In this document: positions 16,289 through 24,677 of the stretch, in pieces
Numbering within the stretch: position 1 is the first letter of the stretch
Layout of the letters: each line of letters begins with the position of its first letter
Source: an uncultured Spirochaetia bacterium
Lineage (GTDB): Bacteria > Spirochaetota > Brachyspiria > Brachyspirales > Brachyspiraceae
Length of the DNA: 49,602 nucleotides
Reading direction: 5' to 3'
Assembly: GCA_947038115.1 (NCBI GenBank)
Contig: CAMQVF010000007.1
Coordinates: 1 to 49,602, forward strand
The notes under the pieces: model-generated
The model's input: the letters and a program-made list of their open reading frames with translations, nothing else
Databases searched by the model: none
What the model was told of the DNA's origin: nothing
Program-made: the position numbers and the translations under genes

Positions 16289-17536
16289 ATGATTAAATAT
16301 TTTTTATACACATTCTTTATAGCTTTAACAATATCGATTAATTTGTTTTCAGAAGGCTATAAAATAATATCTCAACACGGCGATATATCAATTACTGTCG
16401 ATGAAAATAATTCAAACTTTGATGTGAAAAACTATTTACCAACAAATTATTTTAAATTAGAAACCGAATCTACTTCATATATAATTTTAGAAAAAGAAAA
16501 TAAATCGATGATATTAATGCCAAATTCTAAAATGAGTGTGATATCTAATAATATAATTCTTGAAGAAGGCTATTTATATGCAAAAAGTAATGATACAAAT
16601 AATATAATTATAAATATTGGAAATAATAAAAATCAATATAAAATCGATGGGCATTCATTTTCTATTGTTGCTAGCGATAATAAACTTAAAGCTTTAACAT
16701 ATAAAAATTCTATAAAGCTAACATCAAGTATAAATTCATCATTAAATTATTACTTAGAGCCATATAATCACACCCAAATATTTCCATTATTAACGAACCC
16801 GAGAACTCTGACACAAAATGAAAAAGGACTTATTGAAAGTGTATCGAGACAGCTTGAAACTGAAGTTGCTAATAATTTAAATAAATCAGTAGAAAGATAT
16901 AGTTTTAAGATTTTTGAAAAGACCAGAAATGAAACTGAAATTTATAGAGTTATAAGCCCAAATAAAGGGCCTAATATATTTTTAATTGTCCCGCATGGAA
17001 ATGAAAGAACAGGAACAGATGTCGCCATCGAAAGGGTTCAAATGCCAATAAAAAAGGGAAGCCTTACTATTGTGCCTATTGCCTCAGCTTATTCATATAA
17101 AATAAACTCAAGATATTTGGATGGTGAAGATATTAATAATAAATTCTTTAAAAGAAAAAAAGATAAAAATGATGTTGAAAAGTTAGCAACTAGATATATG
17201 AAAATGCTTGATGAATATGAAATAGATGTTGTTATTACACTTCATGAAGGAAATGGATTTCAAGAATTTTTTGGTGACTCTATTGTCTATGATACAAGAC
17301 GGCTTGACAATACTGTTAAACATATTTTAGGAAAAATTAATGCTCGCATTGAGCCTTATGAATATAAGTTCAAGCAAATGTATTACCCAATGCCTGAGAC
17401 AATAACATATTATGCAATGAAACAAGGCATCAATGCTTATGGCATAGAACTTACAAGAAATTTGCCCCATGAAAATAAGAGAGTAATAATGCATGCTATT
17501 GTTGATGAATTTTTACGAGTCTATGGCTTAATCTAA
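16289..17536 (+). CDS. Secreted protein: FecR-like N-terminal domain fused to an M14/AstE-like zinc amidohydrolase
   Basis: A signal peptide (about residues 1-20) is followed by about 150 residues of beta strands with the FecR-like phrases GDISITVDENNS, SMILMPNSKMSV and EEGYLYAKSN. From about residue 200 comes an M14-type domain of the succinylglutamate desuccinylase/aspartoacylase kind: HGNE (His and Glu zinc ligands), LHEG (third ligand His) and YGIELTRN with the catalytic Glu. The enzyme part looks complete, so it probably cuts an amide or peptide in the periplasm, perhaps peptidoglycan-derived. The last 9 bases overlap the convergent Fpg-like gene. Confidence 0.72.
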   Translation: MIKYFLYTFFIALTISINLFSEGYKIISQHGDISITVDENNSNFDVKNYLPTNYFKLETESTSYIILEKENKSMILMPNSKMSVISNNIILEEGYLYAKSNDTNNIIINIGNNKNQYKIDGHSFSIVASDNKLKALTYKNSIKLTSSINSSLNYYLEPYNHTQIFPLLTNPRTLTQNEKGLIESVSRQLETEVANNLNKSVERYSFKIFEKTRNETEIYRVISPNKGPNIFLIVPHGNERTGTDVAIERVQMPIKKGSLTIVPIASAYSYKINSRYLDGEDINNKFFKRKKDKNDVEKLATRYMKMLDEYEIDVVITLHEGNGFQEFFGDSIVYDTRRLDNTVKHILGKINARIEPYEYKFKQMYYPMPETITYYAMKQGINAYGIELTRNLPHENKRVIMHAIVDEFLRVYGLI

Positions 17537-18169
17537 TTCATCATCAGCAAACTCATCATCACTAACAATTATAGCCTCACGCAAAAGTTTTTTAATAGAA
17601 TCATAAACTTTACGCACATCACTTTTATCGATGTCTTTAGTTTTAGTGCTAGGGTTCATTTTACAATGTGCTAAAATATCTTTTGTATATTGCTCGCCTA
17701 TTCCAGCTATTATTTTTTGATCGCCAATCATCTCTTCAATTGTACCATCATAATTTTCAAGCAAAACACAAAATAAATTATAATTAAATTGTTTAGTTAA
17801 AGGGTCATATCCAACTTGTGGCATAACTGTTACATCTTTCCATACGGGGATAATATCAGTCTCGCCAGTTGGGTCTATTATAAATAAATTAGTTTTATCT
17901 GTATAAAAACCTATCATTGCATTTTCATAAGTTTCGTCTTCTGTACAAACAAAAGCACCTTCTTTACCTAATGCTACAAGCATTGTATCTTCAGACATTT
18001 GGAATTGAATATAAGAGCCGTATCGAGGAATATCGATTATTTTTTGCCCTTTAAATTCTTCAAGTCCTAAGTATTTTTCATCGAATGCTAAAACCTTGTC
18101 TATATAAGCATAACATATCTCTTCTTTAAGCGCCTTTATCATAGCAATTAAATAAGGTAGTTCTCTCAT
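17528..18169 (-). CDS. Fpg/Nei-family protein lacking the N-terminal proline and zinc finger
   Basis: The start MRELPYLIAMIK parallels the MPELPEVETI of formamidopyrimidine-DNA glycosylase, and DQKIIAGIGEQYTKDILAHCKMNP is the helix-two-turns-helix region. The protein is 213 residues instead of about 270 and stops before the usual zinc finger. The catalytic Pro after Met is Arg2, Glu3 is kept, and the lysine in RRGKYL is Ser (PRYGSYIQF). It may bind DNA without lyase chemistry. An acidic tail (DDEFADDELD) ends it. It is divergent from the GG-terminal protein, and its 3' end overlaps the M14-like gene. Confidence 0.72.
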   Translation of the reverse strand: MRELPYLIAMIKALKEEICYAYIDKVLAFDEKYLGLEEFKGQKIIDIPRYGSYIQFQMSEDTMLVALGKEGAFVCTEDETYENAMIGFYTDKTNLFIIDPTGETDIIPVWKDVTVMPQVGYDPLTKQFNYNLFCVLLENYDGTIEEMIGDQKIIAGIGEQYTKDILAHCKMNPSTKTKDIDKSDVRKVYDSIKKLLREAIIVSDDEFADDELD

Positions 18170-18287: not shown

Positions 18288-18348
18288 ATTTGTTTTTTTA
18301 TTCATTCTTTGATATTATTAACTCTAGTTCTTAAATTAAGGAAATACC

Positions 18349-18708
18349 ATGAAGTTAAAAATTAAAGATGAAACTTTTTCTAAAAAAATAATAAATGAAA
18401 TAGACATAGATTTAGAGACAGAAATTATAACTATAAAAGATATAATAAAACTTAGAATAAAAAAAGAAATAGAAAATAACGATTTAAAAAGCCGATTAAT
18501 CGACCCAGAAGACATTGAAAAAATATTAAATAATACAAAAAAAATTGACTATAATAAACAAGTAGAAATAGCATTAAAAGCATTTACTGACAATTCATAT
18601 TTTATTTTAATAGACAGCATTCAAGCTGAAAGTCTCGAGCAAGTTGTTATTATAAATAAAGATACAAAAATAAGTTTTATGAAATTAACACCTTTGATAG
18701 GCGGTTAA
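18349..18708 (+). CDS. Ubiquitin/MoaD-like beta-grasp protein ending in Gly-Gly
   Basis: The 119-residue protein begins with a strand-turn-strand-helix (KLKIKDETF, NEIDIDLE, then TIKDIIKLRIKKEIEN), the beta-grasp opening. A helical middle of about 45 residues follows. The end reads SYFILIDSIQAESLEQVV, then DTKISFMKLTPLIGG. This matches the last strands of MoaD/ThiS/ubiquitin-like proteins, with a Gly118-Gly119 C-terminus. I recall uncharacterised bacterial proteins with the same outline ending in LVPLVGG. No E1-like, JAB-protease or molybdopterin gene lies nearby. It overlaps the giant envelope gene by 4 bases, tail to tail. Function unknown; a carrier or conjugated modifier is only a hypothesis. 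Confidence 0.8.
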   Translation: MKLKIKDETFSKKIINEIDIDLETEIITIKDIIKLRIKKEIENNDLKSRLIDPEDIEKILNNTKKIDYNKQVEIALKAFTDNSYFILIDSIQAESLEQVVIINKDTKISFMKLTPLIGG

Positions 18709-21700
18709 AGTTTAATTGTTAAAGAAAATAAAAAATTAAAACCCATATCAATGTCATATCTATTCATGTTTTTATACTCACTTGATGTTTTAAAATATTT
18801 TGTAAGAACAATAGGTAAGTCCAAAACAGAATTAAATGACATATATTTTTGAGAATAAACTGTGAAAATATACGAAGGTTCGATAATAAAAAATTCACTC
18901 TCTTTATCTAAAGTGTTATTTGCATTTTGACTATCAAAGTAATCGGATGAAGTCGAATTTATTATATTATTAACATTATATATATTTTCATTATCAAAAT
19001 ACTCGAAAATAAAAAATGGTATATTCATTCTAAACGTGTGGCTAAAGTCAATATTATTTTTAATAAATCTCACCAATGCCCCAGTGCTTATAGAGTGAGA
19101 ATATGTATAAGAAATGTCGAATCGAAACAAATGCCTCGCTTCACTTAATATAACAGCCGTCATATAATTTAGCATATCTTCATATTTACTATTATTATAA
19201 TTAGTTCCATACTCATCCCCCATGCCCATATAATTACCATCATTAAAATTCATATGCTGATTTATAGCCGAATACTCATAACCAAATCTGAATCGCATAT
19301 CATGAGAACCAATTGGAATATATGTATAACTATTGAATATAAAAGAATTTTCAACTGTTTTGTCTTTATAATTTTTACTTAGAATATATTCAATATCATA
19401 TGCCAATAGTATTATATTTAAAATGTTATTCTTACTCAATTTTATAATATCAGAAATTTTAATATCTCTTTCAGCCAAAACAGAAATATCCTCAATTTGT
19501 TCAAAATAAATACTAGAATCTCTGCTTGTATTCATAGAGTGAGTATATATAAATGAATTAGGAATAATCCAATTGATATAACTTATATACTTAAAATTAA
19601 ACTCCAAGCTATATTCTTCATACAAAGTCATATCCAGATAATAATCACTATGATGATAATATTTATTTTCGTTAAAGTCATACACATCATATAATTGATT
19701 AAAAGCCTTATGCCTACGAGCTTTATCTTTATTGCCACTTCCAGATATAATATTTCTAAAAGAATTTTCAAAAGGTAAATCAATATAAGCAAAAGGATAA
19801 TTAAAAACTATTGGAAAAAGAGTATCAGCATATCGAGCCACACTAAAGTCCCCATTATCAAAAACATCACTTTCAGCCATTGATGCATCTCTGATATAAT
19901 ATACATTTATATTATTCAAAAATGGCGAATCGATAAAATCGCTAAACTCAAGAGAAAAAGATAAATCAACTGCTAAAAACGAATAAGTATCTTTAAAGTC
20001 TGCATAAACTTCATCTTCGTTAAAAGAATAATTTTTTGTCTCGTCATATTTAAAATCGCTTTCGCTATAAGATTCATACATATTAATTTCTACCGACCCT
20101 AGAAATGGAATATACCCAGTCGAAATACTTTGTTGTGTGTTGTAACCCCTGTTATTTAAATACTCATTTATACGATTTCCATTATCATCCAATTCATCAA
20201 ATAATTTATTATTCCATAAAGTTGCGAATGTACTAAAATAATCACTGTCATATTTATCATTAAAATAATCGCTGAAGAAATTATCATATTCACTGCTATA
20301 ATTAATATTTTCTGCTATAGAAAAAGATACGCTAAGTATATCGATAAAAATTATATTTAAACTTCCTCCCTGCTCTCTTGAAAATAAATAGCGAGCATCA
20401 TGCAGTTCCTCATCATAGCTTTTATCATTATTAAAAATATTATCATCTTCTTTTAGAAACCCGTCATAAGCATCAAAATAAATTTCATCTTCAGATATAT
20501 TTTCGACACTCCTGTTATACCGCTTCTCGATGTTCGCATTAATATAATAGTCTTGATACATATATAAATTTTCTATGCCAAAAATATTTTTAATCTCATA
20601 AACTTCTCGAATATCAAAAGCCCTCGAATAGCTACTATAACTCTGTAAATAAATTGAGTCATCCTCTTTAAGTACCAAATTATTTTTTTCATTAAACGAA
20701 CTTAAATAGCTATGATAAAGTTTTGGCGAATACTTGCTTGGAAAAACTAAAGAAAGAGAAAAATTAAAATCTTTGATAAATTTATAAATATAATCATCAG
20801 AATATAAATCATTATACTCATACCCCATTAAATTATCATCGCTATAACCAAAACCAGCAGAGACTCCTAAAACACCAAGTAAAATTGCAGAGGTGTTTAT
20901 ATAATCGAAGTTTAATTCATATTGCGAAGGTGTGTCATCGATATAAGCAAAACCTTGACCGACTTCCTTATGTTCATAAATAATATTAAAATTTGAAACT
21001 ATCGAGAAGTTATTAATTTCAAAACCTTTATATAAAAAGTCGCCACCAATATTCCAAGCCATCCCATGTTTTAATATATCATCACTTGCATAAGCTTCAT
21101 TAATCCATAAAGTGCCCGCAGAATAATTAGCACCCAAATTTTTCTCTTCCAAAACACCAAAGCCAAACATTTTTATTCTATTTAAAGATACATGCCCAGT
21201 TGATGCAATATCAAAAAAACACTTATATCCATCAATTATTATACTGTCATTATTTTTATATTTATCCCCATTGTTTATTGAAATACTGATAGCTTCGGTC
21301 TTGCTTAAATCATCAAAGTGAATAGTAACTTTATTCCACTTGTTTTTATTATTCTCTCTCCGATTAAGTAATTTCATATCAAATTTAATTTCATAATATC
21401 GATTTGTACTTTCACCAAATCTTATAATAAATTTTTCACTTTTAGAAATCGATTCAAGTTCTTTATAAATAAAAAAATTAAGCTCTTTGTAACTCGATAA
21501 ATTATAAAATTCGCTATCATTAGGATAAATATATATTAGTGCTTCTTTTGCGTCTTTTTTATTATTTTTATATTCCCTGCCATTAATTTTATATTCAAGC
21601 CTCAAAGACGATTCTGAAAATTCATCCAATTTATCTTTTTTAATTTTGCCATGTAAATCATTATATATTTTTATCCACTCGCTATCATCAATAAGTCTAT

Positions 21701-24677
21701 TTTCATTTTGAGAATTATAAATACTATCATAGTCTGAATTTATAATTGACGCATTAAACAAATTATTATTTTCAGTTTTTATATTATCAATAAAAATATC
21801 TGTTATGCTTATCTTTCTAAAAGTCAAATGAGAAAGAATAAACCGACCAGTAAGCTCTTTTTTTTGACTACTTTCTGAATATAAACTTACTCTAAGTGCT
21901 TTCGAATTTTTAATTATACTTTTATCTTTTAAGTCTAAAAAATTTTGTATTTTTATTTTAATCTTAAAAAAATTACCTCCAATATGCTCAATGCTATAAT
22001 TTTCACTGCTGGCAAAATCATTCTTATTTTTATTATAATAATCTAAACTCGGTATAATTATCGACTTTCTACTTTTTACACTACGAGTAAGAGCCACAGT
22101 ATTATCAGTATCATAAAAAATATCATCATCATTTAAATCTTCAGAATCTCTAATTCCATTGCCATTTTCGATTTCGTCTGAAGTTGACCCACGTCTACCC
22201 TGCCCCATTTTTGTTATTTTTTCATATCTTGATTGTTCTTTATAATTAAATAATAATCCATTTGCATCAGCCTCTGAAGACTCGCTATCAAAAATACCAT
22301 CACCATCAAAATCTTCTGTTGGGCTTCCTGCTTCAATCATTAAATTTATTTTGTCTGGAGAAGAATTGTTATCACTGCCACCTAACGAGCATATAATTTC
22401 AAGTTCGTTAAATGAGCTAATGTCATATCCATTGTTAATATCAAAGCCCTGCACTACTGATACATATTTTGATTTTGTAGCACTCGAAAATTCATAATCG
22501 AAAATTAATGCCGAACTATTTTCTTTGTTAAGCCCAATTTTATGTCCGCCTGAGTCTGAATAATAAGCACCAACTTTTGACTTAAATGATTTTATTTGAT
22601 CGGGTGACTCTCTTTTTATTTTATCAATTTCATTTAAATTATAAAAACTATATTGCTGTGTAATGTTATTATATTTTCTTAAATCTATATAATATAAAAA
22701 TCCAAGGCTTAACCCTTCGTTTTCGAGCACTGGATTTCTTGTGAAGTATAATTTTCTGCTTTCACTAATATCAAGCGATAAACTCTCGCCATAAGTCGAC
22801 ATATCAAATATAAATGCTTTATTCTTTGTGTTCTCATTATAAATTGAATATGCATAAGAGGCTTGAATGTTAAATTCTATATTATCATTTTGAATATTAA
22901 AAAGAGATGGAATGCTTAAAGAAGTGTCAGCCATCAGTAATAAATTTGCCGACGAGTTATTATTAATATCTATTGTGCTTGAGTCTAAAAAATTACCGCC
23001 ATAAACAGCCGATAAACCAATATCATTTTTATCATTAAAATTATATGAAAATCTTGAACCAACATTATAACCAAATAAACCTGAGCCAGAATCTTTATAT
23101 TTATATGATACAACAATTTCATCATTAAAATTTACAATAAATGAGTCATCAAATTTAAGAATACCAGCTTCATAATCAACTTCATAATTATCTTCTCTTA
23201 TCGTTTTATTATTTATTTTCACAACCACACTATCAATTACAATACCTGATCTAAGATAAAAACTATCTGTCTTTTTAGTTTTATATTTATACTCAAACAA
23301 ATATTTACTAATTTCATCTCTATTATTTTCTATATAATTATTATCAAATTCATAAATATACTCATTTTTTATTTCTGTATTTTTATTATTAAATGGATAA
23401 ATATTTTCAAATTCAATATAACTCTCTGAAAAATTTATATAAAAATTACCTGTATTATTAAAAGAGCCATTATCATTATAAAAATGTTCATTTTCGTTTT
23501 TGATTATAGAATTATCTGAATGCATCAGTTTAATAACTAAAGAATTATTATCTATATTATCAGGAATCGGGTAGTAATTTCTAAGCTCCCATGGGTTTTT
23601 TATATTTTCATAGGCGGTGTCGGTAAGAACAATAAAATTATTATACATCTCGCCACTTAAACCAATAATATTTTCCGAATTCATATTCGTAAGCATTGTA
23701 TAACCCAAATTATCAAGCCGATTAAAAGGTTTATCAGCCGAGCTATTTATAGGCACTCCTTCCCCACTTTTCGAAAAGAATAAAATTGTCTTCTTGCCCA
23801 AAGTTGTATTTACTTTGAGTATTCCTTTTTCATTGTCGAATCGATATAAACTACTATCCAATTTAATAAATCTATTTGTAATTATAGCACTTCTACCAGT
23901 CGTTGTTTTATAGGGGGTAATTATTTCGATGTCATATAAATAATCGCTATTTTCAATTTCTCTAAAAATCTCTATTTTATCTAAAGTCTTAGTCTTCAAA
24001 TCATAAAATTGATATTTATAATAATCAACATCGTGAATGCTAATTGTCTCTTCAGATGAATATCCATTAAAAACTTTCTCTTCTCTTTTAGCTAAGTCGA
24101 TATTGACAAAACTATCAATCTGAAAATTATGAAACTTATTTTTTATTTTTATACCCAAAACATCATTTTTAGAATTATTCTCATTTAAATAAATATTATG
24201 TTTGTCGAATAAAAAATATTCATTTGCGATAATTATACTATCGAAAAATTTATTACTACTAGGTGTCCAAACCGCTTTATAGTCGATTGTTTCTGTTTCA
24301 TCATTGCCGACTATAAAAGCATTAATCTCATTATTAACCCCACCGATTATTTCAAAAGAAAAATCTTGATTAAAATCGAAGCCGTCAAAAATATAATTAT
24401 TATCGCTATTTTCAAAAATAAAACCCGATGAATTATTAGACTTAAAATCATCTGACAAAAATATTTTTTTAGTCTCACCGTATTTAAAGCCTATATCATA
24501 AAAGCCTTTAATTTTTAAATATGAATTGTTGATTGGATTGAAAATTGGTATATTGGAATTATTTGTATTAGTATTATCTAAAGAAGTATTATTATTTGTA
24601 ATTGCGACGAGGCTTTCCTCACATAATAAAAACAACAAGTATACGAAATAAAAAATATACCACATATAAACACCCAT
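18705..24677 (-). CDS. Giant (1990-residue) beta-rich envelope protein, possibly SprA-like
   Basis: A hydrophobic N-terminus (MWYIFYFVYLLFLL, then LVA) suggests export. The rest is rich in Asn, Asp, Ser, Tyr and Phe with alternating patterns, as in outer-membrane barrels. Around residues 530-560, INNKTIREDNYEVDYEAG then FNDEIVVSYKYK resemble the repeat seen in SprA (type IX secretion translocon). The middle has calcium-type Asp runs: DFDGDGIFDSES, NGNGIRDSEDLND. The last 700 residues read like repeated transmembrane strands. I see no enzyme motif. The SprA link is from memory; other giant barrels are possible. It has its own promoter. An ATG at 24665 is an alternative start. Confidence 0.75.
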   Translation of the reverse strand: MGVYMWYIFYFVYLLFLLCEESLVAITNNNTSLDNTNTNNSNIPIFNPINNSYLKIKGFYDIGFKYGETKKIFLSDDFKSNNSSGFIFENSDNNYIFDGFDFNQDFSFEIIGGVNNEINAFIVGNDETETIDYKAVWTPSSNKFFDSIIIANEYFLFDKHNIYLNENNSKNDVLGIKIKNKFHNFQIDSFVNIDLAKREEKVFNGYSSEETISIHDVDYYKYQFYDLKTKTLDKIEIFREIENSDYLYDIEIITPYKTTTGRSAIITNRFIKLDSSLYRFDNEKGILKVNTTLGKKTILFFSKSGEGVPINSSADKPFNRLDNLGYTMLTNMNSENIIGLSGEMYNNFIVLTDTAYENIKNPWELRNYYPIPDNIDNNSLVIKLMHSDNSIIKNENEHFYNDNGSFNNTGNFYINFSESYIEFENIYPFNNKNTEIKNEYIYEFDNNYIENNRDEISKYLFEYKYKTKKTDSFYLRSGIVIDSVVVKINNKTIREDNYEVDYEAGILKFDDSFIVNFNDEIVVSYKYKDSGSGLFGYNVGSRFSYNFNDKNDIGLSAVYGGNFLDSSTIDINNNSSANLLLMADTSLSIPSLFNIQNDNIEFNIQASYAYSIYNENTKNKAFIFDMSTYGESLSLDISESRKLYFTRNPVLENEGLSLGFLYYIDLRKYNNITQQYSFYNLNEIDKIKRESPDQIKSFKSKVGAYYSDSGGHKIGLNKENSSALIFDYEFSSATKSKYVSVVQGFDINNGYDISSFNELEIICSLGGSDNNSSPDKINLMIEAGSPTEDFDGDGIFDSESSEADANGLLFNYKEQSRYEKITKMGQGRRGSTSDEIENGNGIRDSEDLNDDDIFYDTDNTVALTRSVKSRKSIIIPSLDYYNKNKNDFASSENYSIEHIGGNFFKIKIKIQNFLDLKDKSIIKNSKALRVSLYSESSQKKELTGRFILSHLTFRKISITDIFIDNIKTENNNLFNASIINSDYDSIYNSQNENRLIDDSEWIKIYNDLHGKIKKDKLDEFSESSLRLEYKINGREYKNNKKDAKEALIYIYPNDSEFYNLSSYKELNFFIYKELESISKSEKFIIRFGESTNRYYEIKFDMKLLNRRENNKNKWNKVTIHFDDLSKTEAISISINNGDKYKNNDSIIIDGYKCFFDIASTGHVSLNRIKMFGFGVLEEKNLGANYSAGTLWINEAYASDDILKHGMAWNIGGDFLYKGFEINNFSIVSNFNIIYEHKEVGQGFAYIDDTPSQYELNFDYINTSAILLGVLGVSAGFGYSDDNLMGYEYNDLYSDDYIYKFIKDFNFSLSLVFPSKYSPKLYHSYLSSFNEKNNLVLKEDDSIYLQSYSSYSRAFDIREVYEIKNIFGIENLYMYQDYYINANIEKRYNRSVENISEDEIYFDAYDGFLKEDDNIFNNDKSYDEELHDARYLFSREQGGSLNIIFIDILSVSFSIAENINYSSEYDNFFSDYFNDKYDSDYFSTFATLWNNKLFDELDDNGNRINEYLNNRGYNTQQSISTGYIPFLGSVEINMYESYSESDFKYDETKNYSFNEDEVYADFKDTYSFLAVDLSFSLEFSDFIDSPFLNNINVYYIRDASMAESDVFDNGDFSVARYADTLFPIVFNYPFAYIDLPFENSFRNIISGSGNKDKARRHKAFNQLYDVYDFNENKYYHHSDYYLDMTLYEEYSLEFNFKYISYINWIIPNSFIYTHSMNTSRDSSIYFEQIEDISVLAERDIKISDIIKLSKNNILNIILLAYDIEYILSKNYKDKTVENSFIFNSYTYIPIGSHDMRFRFGYEYSAINQHMNFNDGNYMGMGDEYGTNYNNSKYEDMLNYMTAVILSEARHLFRFDISYTYSHSISTGALVRFIKNNIDFSHTFRMNIPFFIFEYFDNENIYNVNNIINSTSSDYFDSQNANNTLDKESEFFIIEPSYIFTVYSQKYMSFNSVLDLPIVLTKYFKTSSEYKNMNRYDIDMGFNFLFSLTIKL

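Follow-up and report, generated by a model that had tools for sequence, protein, structure and literature searches.

The window analysed here, a 49,602-nucleotide stretch of DNA from an uncultured Spirochaetia bacterium of the family Brachyspiraceae, contains an open reading frame that starts with ATG, encodes 119 amino acids and ends in LTPLIGG directly before the stop codon (Table 1). An earlier note on this sequence had read the product as an orphan ubiquitin- or MoaD-like protein, which raises two questions: whether this small protein, hereafter the carrier, is a beta-grasp protein, and with which other proteins it works. The open reading frame is real, and the LTPLIGG ending described in the note stands at the very C-terminus. 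The carrier is a member of an unnamed family spread over many phyla, and it is almost certainly a ubiquitin-like protein of the beta-grasp fold, linked in function to a large protein with the domains DUF4132 and DUF7737.

Fold, tail and spread of the carrier family

Table 1. Coordinates of the carrier gene, its parts and the neighbouring genes in the window
Feature	Position	Strand	Basis or remark
AAGGAA, ribosome-binding-site-like	18338..18343	+	5 nt upstream of ATG; read from sequence
Ubiquitin-like (beta-grasp) protein gene, 119 aa, stop included	18349..18708	+	
Beta-1/beta-2 hairpin, residues 2-8 and 14-21	18352..18411	+	AlphaFold2 model
Alpha-1, residues 29-49	18433..18495	+	AlphaFold2 model and alignment
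Helical insert, residues 50-83 (helices 53-60 and 68-80)	18496..18597	+	AlphaFold2 model and alignment
Second beta half, residues 84-112	18598..18684	+	AlphaFold2 model and alignment
C-terminal tail LTPLIGG	18685..18705	+	Alignment, tail comparison
Peptidase_M99-like protein gene	16289..17536	+	
Formamidopyrimidine-DNA-glycosylase-like (H2TH) gene	17528..18169	-	Divergent from carrier gene
1990-aa open reading frame	18705..24677	-	Convergent with carrier gene

An AlphaFold2 model of the carrier, built from 41 aligned sequences (mean pLDDT 80.6), has the two N-terminal strands and the long helix listed in Table 1 together with strands at residues 84-88, 99-101 and 107-112; the tail is loose. 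This β-β-α-β-β order is the beta-grasp topology and agrees with the strand-turn-strand-helix opening and closing strands that had been read from the letters in the earlier note; the helical insert placed there between the two halves is also present, but spans about 34 residues in the model rather than about 45. Among PDB structures the top fold matches are ubiquitin, SUMO, NEDD8 and MoaD/MOCS2A, and nearly all of the 50 matches listed are beta-grasp proteins. The E-values are modest (best 5.7e-3, with probabilities of 0.82-0.99 for the top ten) because of the helical insert. The carrier protein alone has no significant match in Pfam or NCBIfam and none to the MoaD/ThiS profile (PF02597), and a profile search of solved structures gave nothing credible for either the carrier or its partner. 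Residues I33, R36 and E40 of alpha-1 are invariant in the 41 aligned relatives, as are G118 and G119 of the tail in the same 41-row alignment.

A contig scan with the single carrier sequence found nothing, and a protein search of 61 genomes found three relatives. A pattern search from a four-row alignment then supplied 42 family loci in Bacteroidota, Pseudomonadota, Planctomycetota, Actinomycetota, Chloroflexota, Armatimonadota, Abditibacteriota and Spirochaetota, all 42 with GG at the exact C-terminus, and 28 of them were recovered by a pattern that omits the tail. Members from Deinococcota were added from plasmid records, and profile searches of the Bacteroidota, Pseudomonadota and spirochaete sets yielded a second tail class, G-x-x-W/F. 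The total is 66 distinct relatives in about nine phyla, a count that includes the window's own carrier, with an exact GG end in 54 and a G-x-x-W/F end in 12. All of the latter keep the first glycine with three residues behind it, and the final W/F is conserved as well. Conservation of the terminal GG (42/42 and 54/66) rules out its occurrence by chance. The wider unannotated family that the earlier note had suspected from LVPLVGG ends thus exists; loss of the GG in homologues, which the note had named as evidence against its reading, is confined to the G-x-x-W/F clade, with the GG kept elsewhere. The distribution is patchy: of the genomes sampled, 11 of 396 in Bacteroidota and 4 of 399 in Pseudomonadota have a member, and no relative was found on the viral contigs searched. 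Matches to the carrier in Brachyspira were rejected, having partial profile coverage and no GG end and reading, by their sequence, as RsfS, the ribosome silencing factor.

A large partner protein and E1-type enzymes

The description of the carrier as an orphan does not hold, since a gene for a DUF4132/DUF7737 protein adjoins it in 58 of the 66 distinct relatives, usually downstream and nearly touching, and an E1 gene is the third gene of the operon in four. The partner comes in two architectures, one of about 850 aa and one of about 1650-1860 aa in which DUF5724 precedes the other domains. Of 393 spirochaete genomes, seven have DUF7737, and all seven have the carrier (Fisher p 3e-14, an optimistic value because the genomes are related). 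G057 is the only one of these 393 with the carrier but without DUF7737; there, a 236-aa gene after the carrier (L007 8786-9496, minus strand) combines an N-terminal partner piece with a PIN-like end (PF01850, E 0.0017), and would by its sequence be either a remnant or a new fusion. Brachyspira (genus g3, name inferred), of the same family as the window genome, has up to 17 DUF4132 matches per genome, and neither DUF7737 nor the carrier was found in it; DUF7737, not DUF4132 alone, therefore marks the partnership. Brachyspira and E. coli DUF4132 proteins share the DUF4132 domain with the partner, but their genomes lack DUF7737, and the Brachyspira paralogues are not accompanied by a ubiquitin-like protein of the carrier family. 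The g3 genomes (G004, G013 and others) have a lineage-specific DUF4132 expansion without DUF7737.

Arrangements of the pair vary in a few genomes. G473 has two carrier-partner pairs on separate contigs (L112 and L113), the spirochaete G319 has the carrier and the DUF7737 gene 8.4 kb apart on the same strand (L125, 2294-2740 and 11150-13999), and upstream of the carrier in Actinomadura nitritigenes there are two or more partner genes in tandem (L075 536-6992).

A fold search with the whole partner gave only weak helical-repeat matches, and a Pfam scan of DUF7737 matched no family other than DUF7737. An E2 (UBC) fold was considered for DUF7737 on the basis of a suggestive strand-helix order and an EPN...C motif, but gained no sequence support, with hhalign probabilities of 0.2-0.3 of 100 against five E2 sequences, one of them verified, and we do not claim it. 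Besides the partner and the E1 no neighbour of the cassette recurs, and no E2, JAB or other isopeptidase was found.

A ThiF/MoeB-type E1 gene directly follows the partner gene at four Bacteroidota loci, in Imperialibacter, Flavobacterium, a Chitinophagales MAG and G737, as the third gene 0-8 bp past the partner in L042, L043 and L061 and as the next gene in L111. The three enzymes scanned match ThiF with E-values of 1e-60 to 1e-68 and fall below the MoeB and ThiF cut-offs; the operon E1s are nearest to MoeB and ThiF. Since the genes flanking the E1 cassettes are unrelated by sequence reading (trmD/rplS, an AbiEi-like pair, a methyltransferase and an integrase), the E1 is apparently part of the cassette. 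E1 genes were found in the operon at these four loci only; in most cassettes there is no E1 close by. In Flavobacterium sp. 28A the three genes (L043 6290-11108) lie between trmD and rplS, which are normally adjacent in a housekeeping operon.

The system shares with MoaD/ThiS (PF02597) and MoeB/ThiF the beta-grasp fold, the terminal GG and, in some operons, a ThiF-type E1. In contrast to MoaD/ThiS, the carrier has no PF02597 match, a helical insert and a large DUF4132/DUF7737 partner, with no thiamine or molybdopterin genes seen around the E1 loci, the window carrier or the cassettes, and the operon E1s are without the CxxC zinc motifs that E. coli MoeB and ThiF carry. Bil, Bub and type II CBASS (operon classes in Iyer et al. 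2006, PMC1779556) likewise combine a ubiquitin-like protein and an E1 in one operon, but in the carrier cassettes neither a JAB protease nor a sequence-recognisable E2 occurs, and their partner is the DUF4132/DUF7737 protein. No PADLOC model matches the carrier or the short-form partner; the E1s match generic E1-E2 models, and the Deinococcus partner weakly matches OloA (E 1e-4). Among the openly licensed papers listed, three mention DUF4132 and none DUF7737 or DUF5724, and a description may exist elsewhere.

Carrier tail, partner cysteine and possible chemistry

All 50 GG-tail partners have a cysteine in the DUF7737 motif YLCIV, and none of the 11 GxxW-tail partners does, these carrying N, S, P or A at that position. 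The window-genome partner (G000) reads YLCIVAD, the cysteine being kept together with the GG tail, and an extra tandem copy in Actinomadura (L075) has R at this position; copies with the cysteine are present at that locus too. In the tree, the Deinococcus partner, which has the long architecture, is sister to the GxxW clade (group support 100/100), yet Deinococcus keeps both the GG tail and the cysteine. Of the 16 columns that split GG from GxxW partners, most follow phylogeny, and the only two at which Deinococcus sides with GG are the cysteine and a W/F site. As all GxxW partners form a single clade, the covariation amounts to about one independent event, and the GG and the cysteine were probably lost jointly, once. 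With Deinococcus counting as one lineage, we regard the link between GG and cysteine as a strong lead, not proof.

We propose that the carrier and the large DUF4132/DUF7737 protein form a distinct ubiquitin-like system, joined in some lineages by an E1-like adenylyltransferase. The E1 would adenylate the terminal glycine of the carrier, and the activated carrier would dock by its flexible tail in the partner, where the conserved DUF7737 cysteine would take it up before it is handed on, either in conjugated form, as a modifier, or as sulfur. Chemical activation of the GG is likely, and the model as a whole, with E1 activation and then uptake by the partner, has our moderate confidence. The role of the cysteine as transfer site is put forward tentatively; if correct, it would define a bacterial ubiquitin-like route different from the known E1-E2-JAB operons. 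Similarly tentative is the view of DUF4132/DUF7737 proteins as a new class of transfer enzyme, which would stand in for E2 and E3, although no E2 domain is recognisable in them, and pass the cysteine-borne carrier to targets. Were it true, a stress-linked modification system would exist in about nine bacterial phyla, and one clade would have lost the glycine tail along with the cysteine. The terminal GG and the DUF7737 cysteine offer residues for testing, as does the compact three-gene Bacteroidota cassette a system. The readings discussed below are not exclusive, and our confidence in them overlaps in part with that in this model.

Deinococcus radiodurans provides a member of the family with published data. 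SEP068184, which is DR_A0165 (PMC9650054), belongs to the same family by profile (L083 5959-6363, tail LTALAGG), and its gene lies directly upstream of the DUF4132 gene DRA0166, like the carrier-partner pairs; the partner there has the long, DUF5724-containing architecture, unlike the form of about 850 aa. In PMC8533742 the DRA0165-DRA0166 operon is assigned to DdrO control, and DRA0166 is reported to rise after mitomycin C in an IrrE-dependent manner. According to PMC9650054, deletion of SEP068184 increases antioxidant activity, the protein binds thioredoxin Trx1, its predicted structure resembles molybdopterin synthase, and it is restricted to Deinococcus and lacks the regulon motif. The two papers disagree on whether DR_A0165 is a member of the DdrO regulon, and the restriction to Deinococcus is contradicted by our family search in about nine phyla. 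The wide family, the DUF7737 partnership, the operon E1 and the GG-cysteine link were not found in the text read of the SEP068184/DRA0165 papers. The carrier family links unannotated GG-ending small proteins, DUF4132/DUF7737/DUF5724 proteins, a DNA-damage-induced Deinococcus operon and a supposedly genus-specific stress peptide.

The D. radiodurans locus also bears on a sulfur-carrier reading, in which the E1 would form a thiocarboxylate at the C-terminus, as happens with ThiS and MoaD, and the partner or its cysteine would receive the sulfur, making the partner a synthase, of an unspecified product, rather than a ligase. There the carrier gene is preceded by two YeeE/YedE genes (sulfur transport type) and a thioredoxin gene (L083 4302-6363), a context that fits this reading, as do the reported thioredoxin binding (PMC9650054), the proximity of the operon E1s to MoeB/ThiF and the presence of MoaD among the fold matches. 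However, the YeeE/YedE-thioredoxin context was not seen in D. ficus, the recurrent neighbours of the cassette include no sulfurtransferase or rhodanese, and the zinc motifs are missing from the operon E1s, and we consider a sulfur carrier rather unlikely. The GxxW/F clade, which retains the pair though the cysteine is gone, and the absence of an E1 beside most loci would instead suit a non-covalent regulatory beta-grasp subunit whose tail docks in the partner, with the GG serving for fit only and activation lost in many lineages. This is doubtful given the strict exact-end GG across about nine phyla, the four operons with an E1, and the Deinococcus case, in which GG tracks the cysteine and not the partner architecture.

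UFM1 and Atg8 have a C-terminal pro-peptide that is removed to leave one C-terminal glycine. If the last three residues of the GxxW tails were such a pro-peptide, both clades would be activated, which would agree with the conserved first glycine and the three residues that follow it in every GxxW tail; conservation of the final W/F itself, loss of the partner cysteine in this clade and the lack of any protease recurring next to GxxW loci make it improbable. We continue to prefer activation of the carrier by an E1 and its uptake by the partner.

The split partner in the window genome

The partner is present in the window genome as two separate genes. The C half (DUF4132+DUF7737, 439 aa; G000:C1:26044-27363, minus strand; DUF7737 match E 5e-38) is 45% identical to residues 401-841 of the Flavobacterium partner, and the N half (316 aa; G000:C31:5914-6864, plus strand) is 27% identical to its residues 79-400, with the junction at 400/401. 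The carrier and the two halves are unlinked, on separate contigs, and all three genes sit well inside their contigs, so the separation is not an assembly edge. In a related species (G001) the C half likewise stands alone, on another contig than the carrier. By identity and tree, the carrier and the C half are closest to Bacteroidota (57% for the carrier to its Flavobacterium relative versus 42% to its Leptospirales relative), which suggests that the genes were acquired horizontally and then split and dispersed. The window genome is also a natural experiment in which the cut at residue 400/401 marks a domain boundary. The unlinked carrier of the window genus and the split partner might also hint at a decaying, functionless leftover gene that has lost its partner, which is very improbable, as the reading frames of the carrier and both halves are intact and G001 keeps the C half and a carrier with an identical tail and 59% identity to that of the window.

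As the earlier note had observed, no E1, JAB or cofactor gene adjoins the carrier within the window. The genome-wide search proposed there revealed two ThiF-type enzymes, but for JAB a single sub-threshold match that reads as RadC. One of the two, on C6 beside the genome's true ThiS, passes the ThiF equivalog cut-off and presumably serves thiamine. The other, alone on C32, has the Chitinophagales operon E1 as its best match (35%, 136 bits, compared with 86 bits to E. coli ThiF); a tree was too weak to place it, with an AU p of 0.047 against a single clade of C32 and the operon E1s. By these comparisons the C32 enzyme is the best candidate activator, unlinked to the carrier.

Around the carrier, the stop codon of the convergent 1990-aa open reading frame overlaps the end of the carrier gene; its product has no Pfam match above cut-off and is probably a surface or outer-membrane protein. 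The order of the H2TH gene and the carrier recurs in a related species (L004), and the Peptidase_M99-like gene (cell-shape carboxypeptidase family) is found upstream in that species too.
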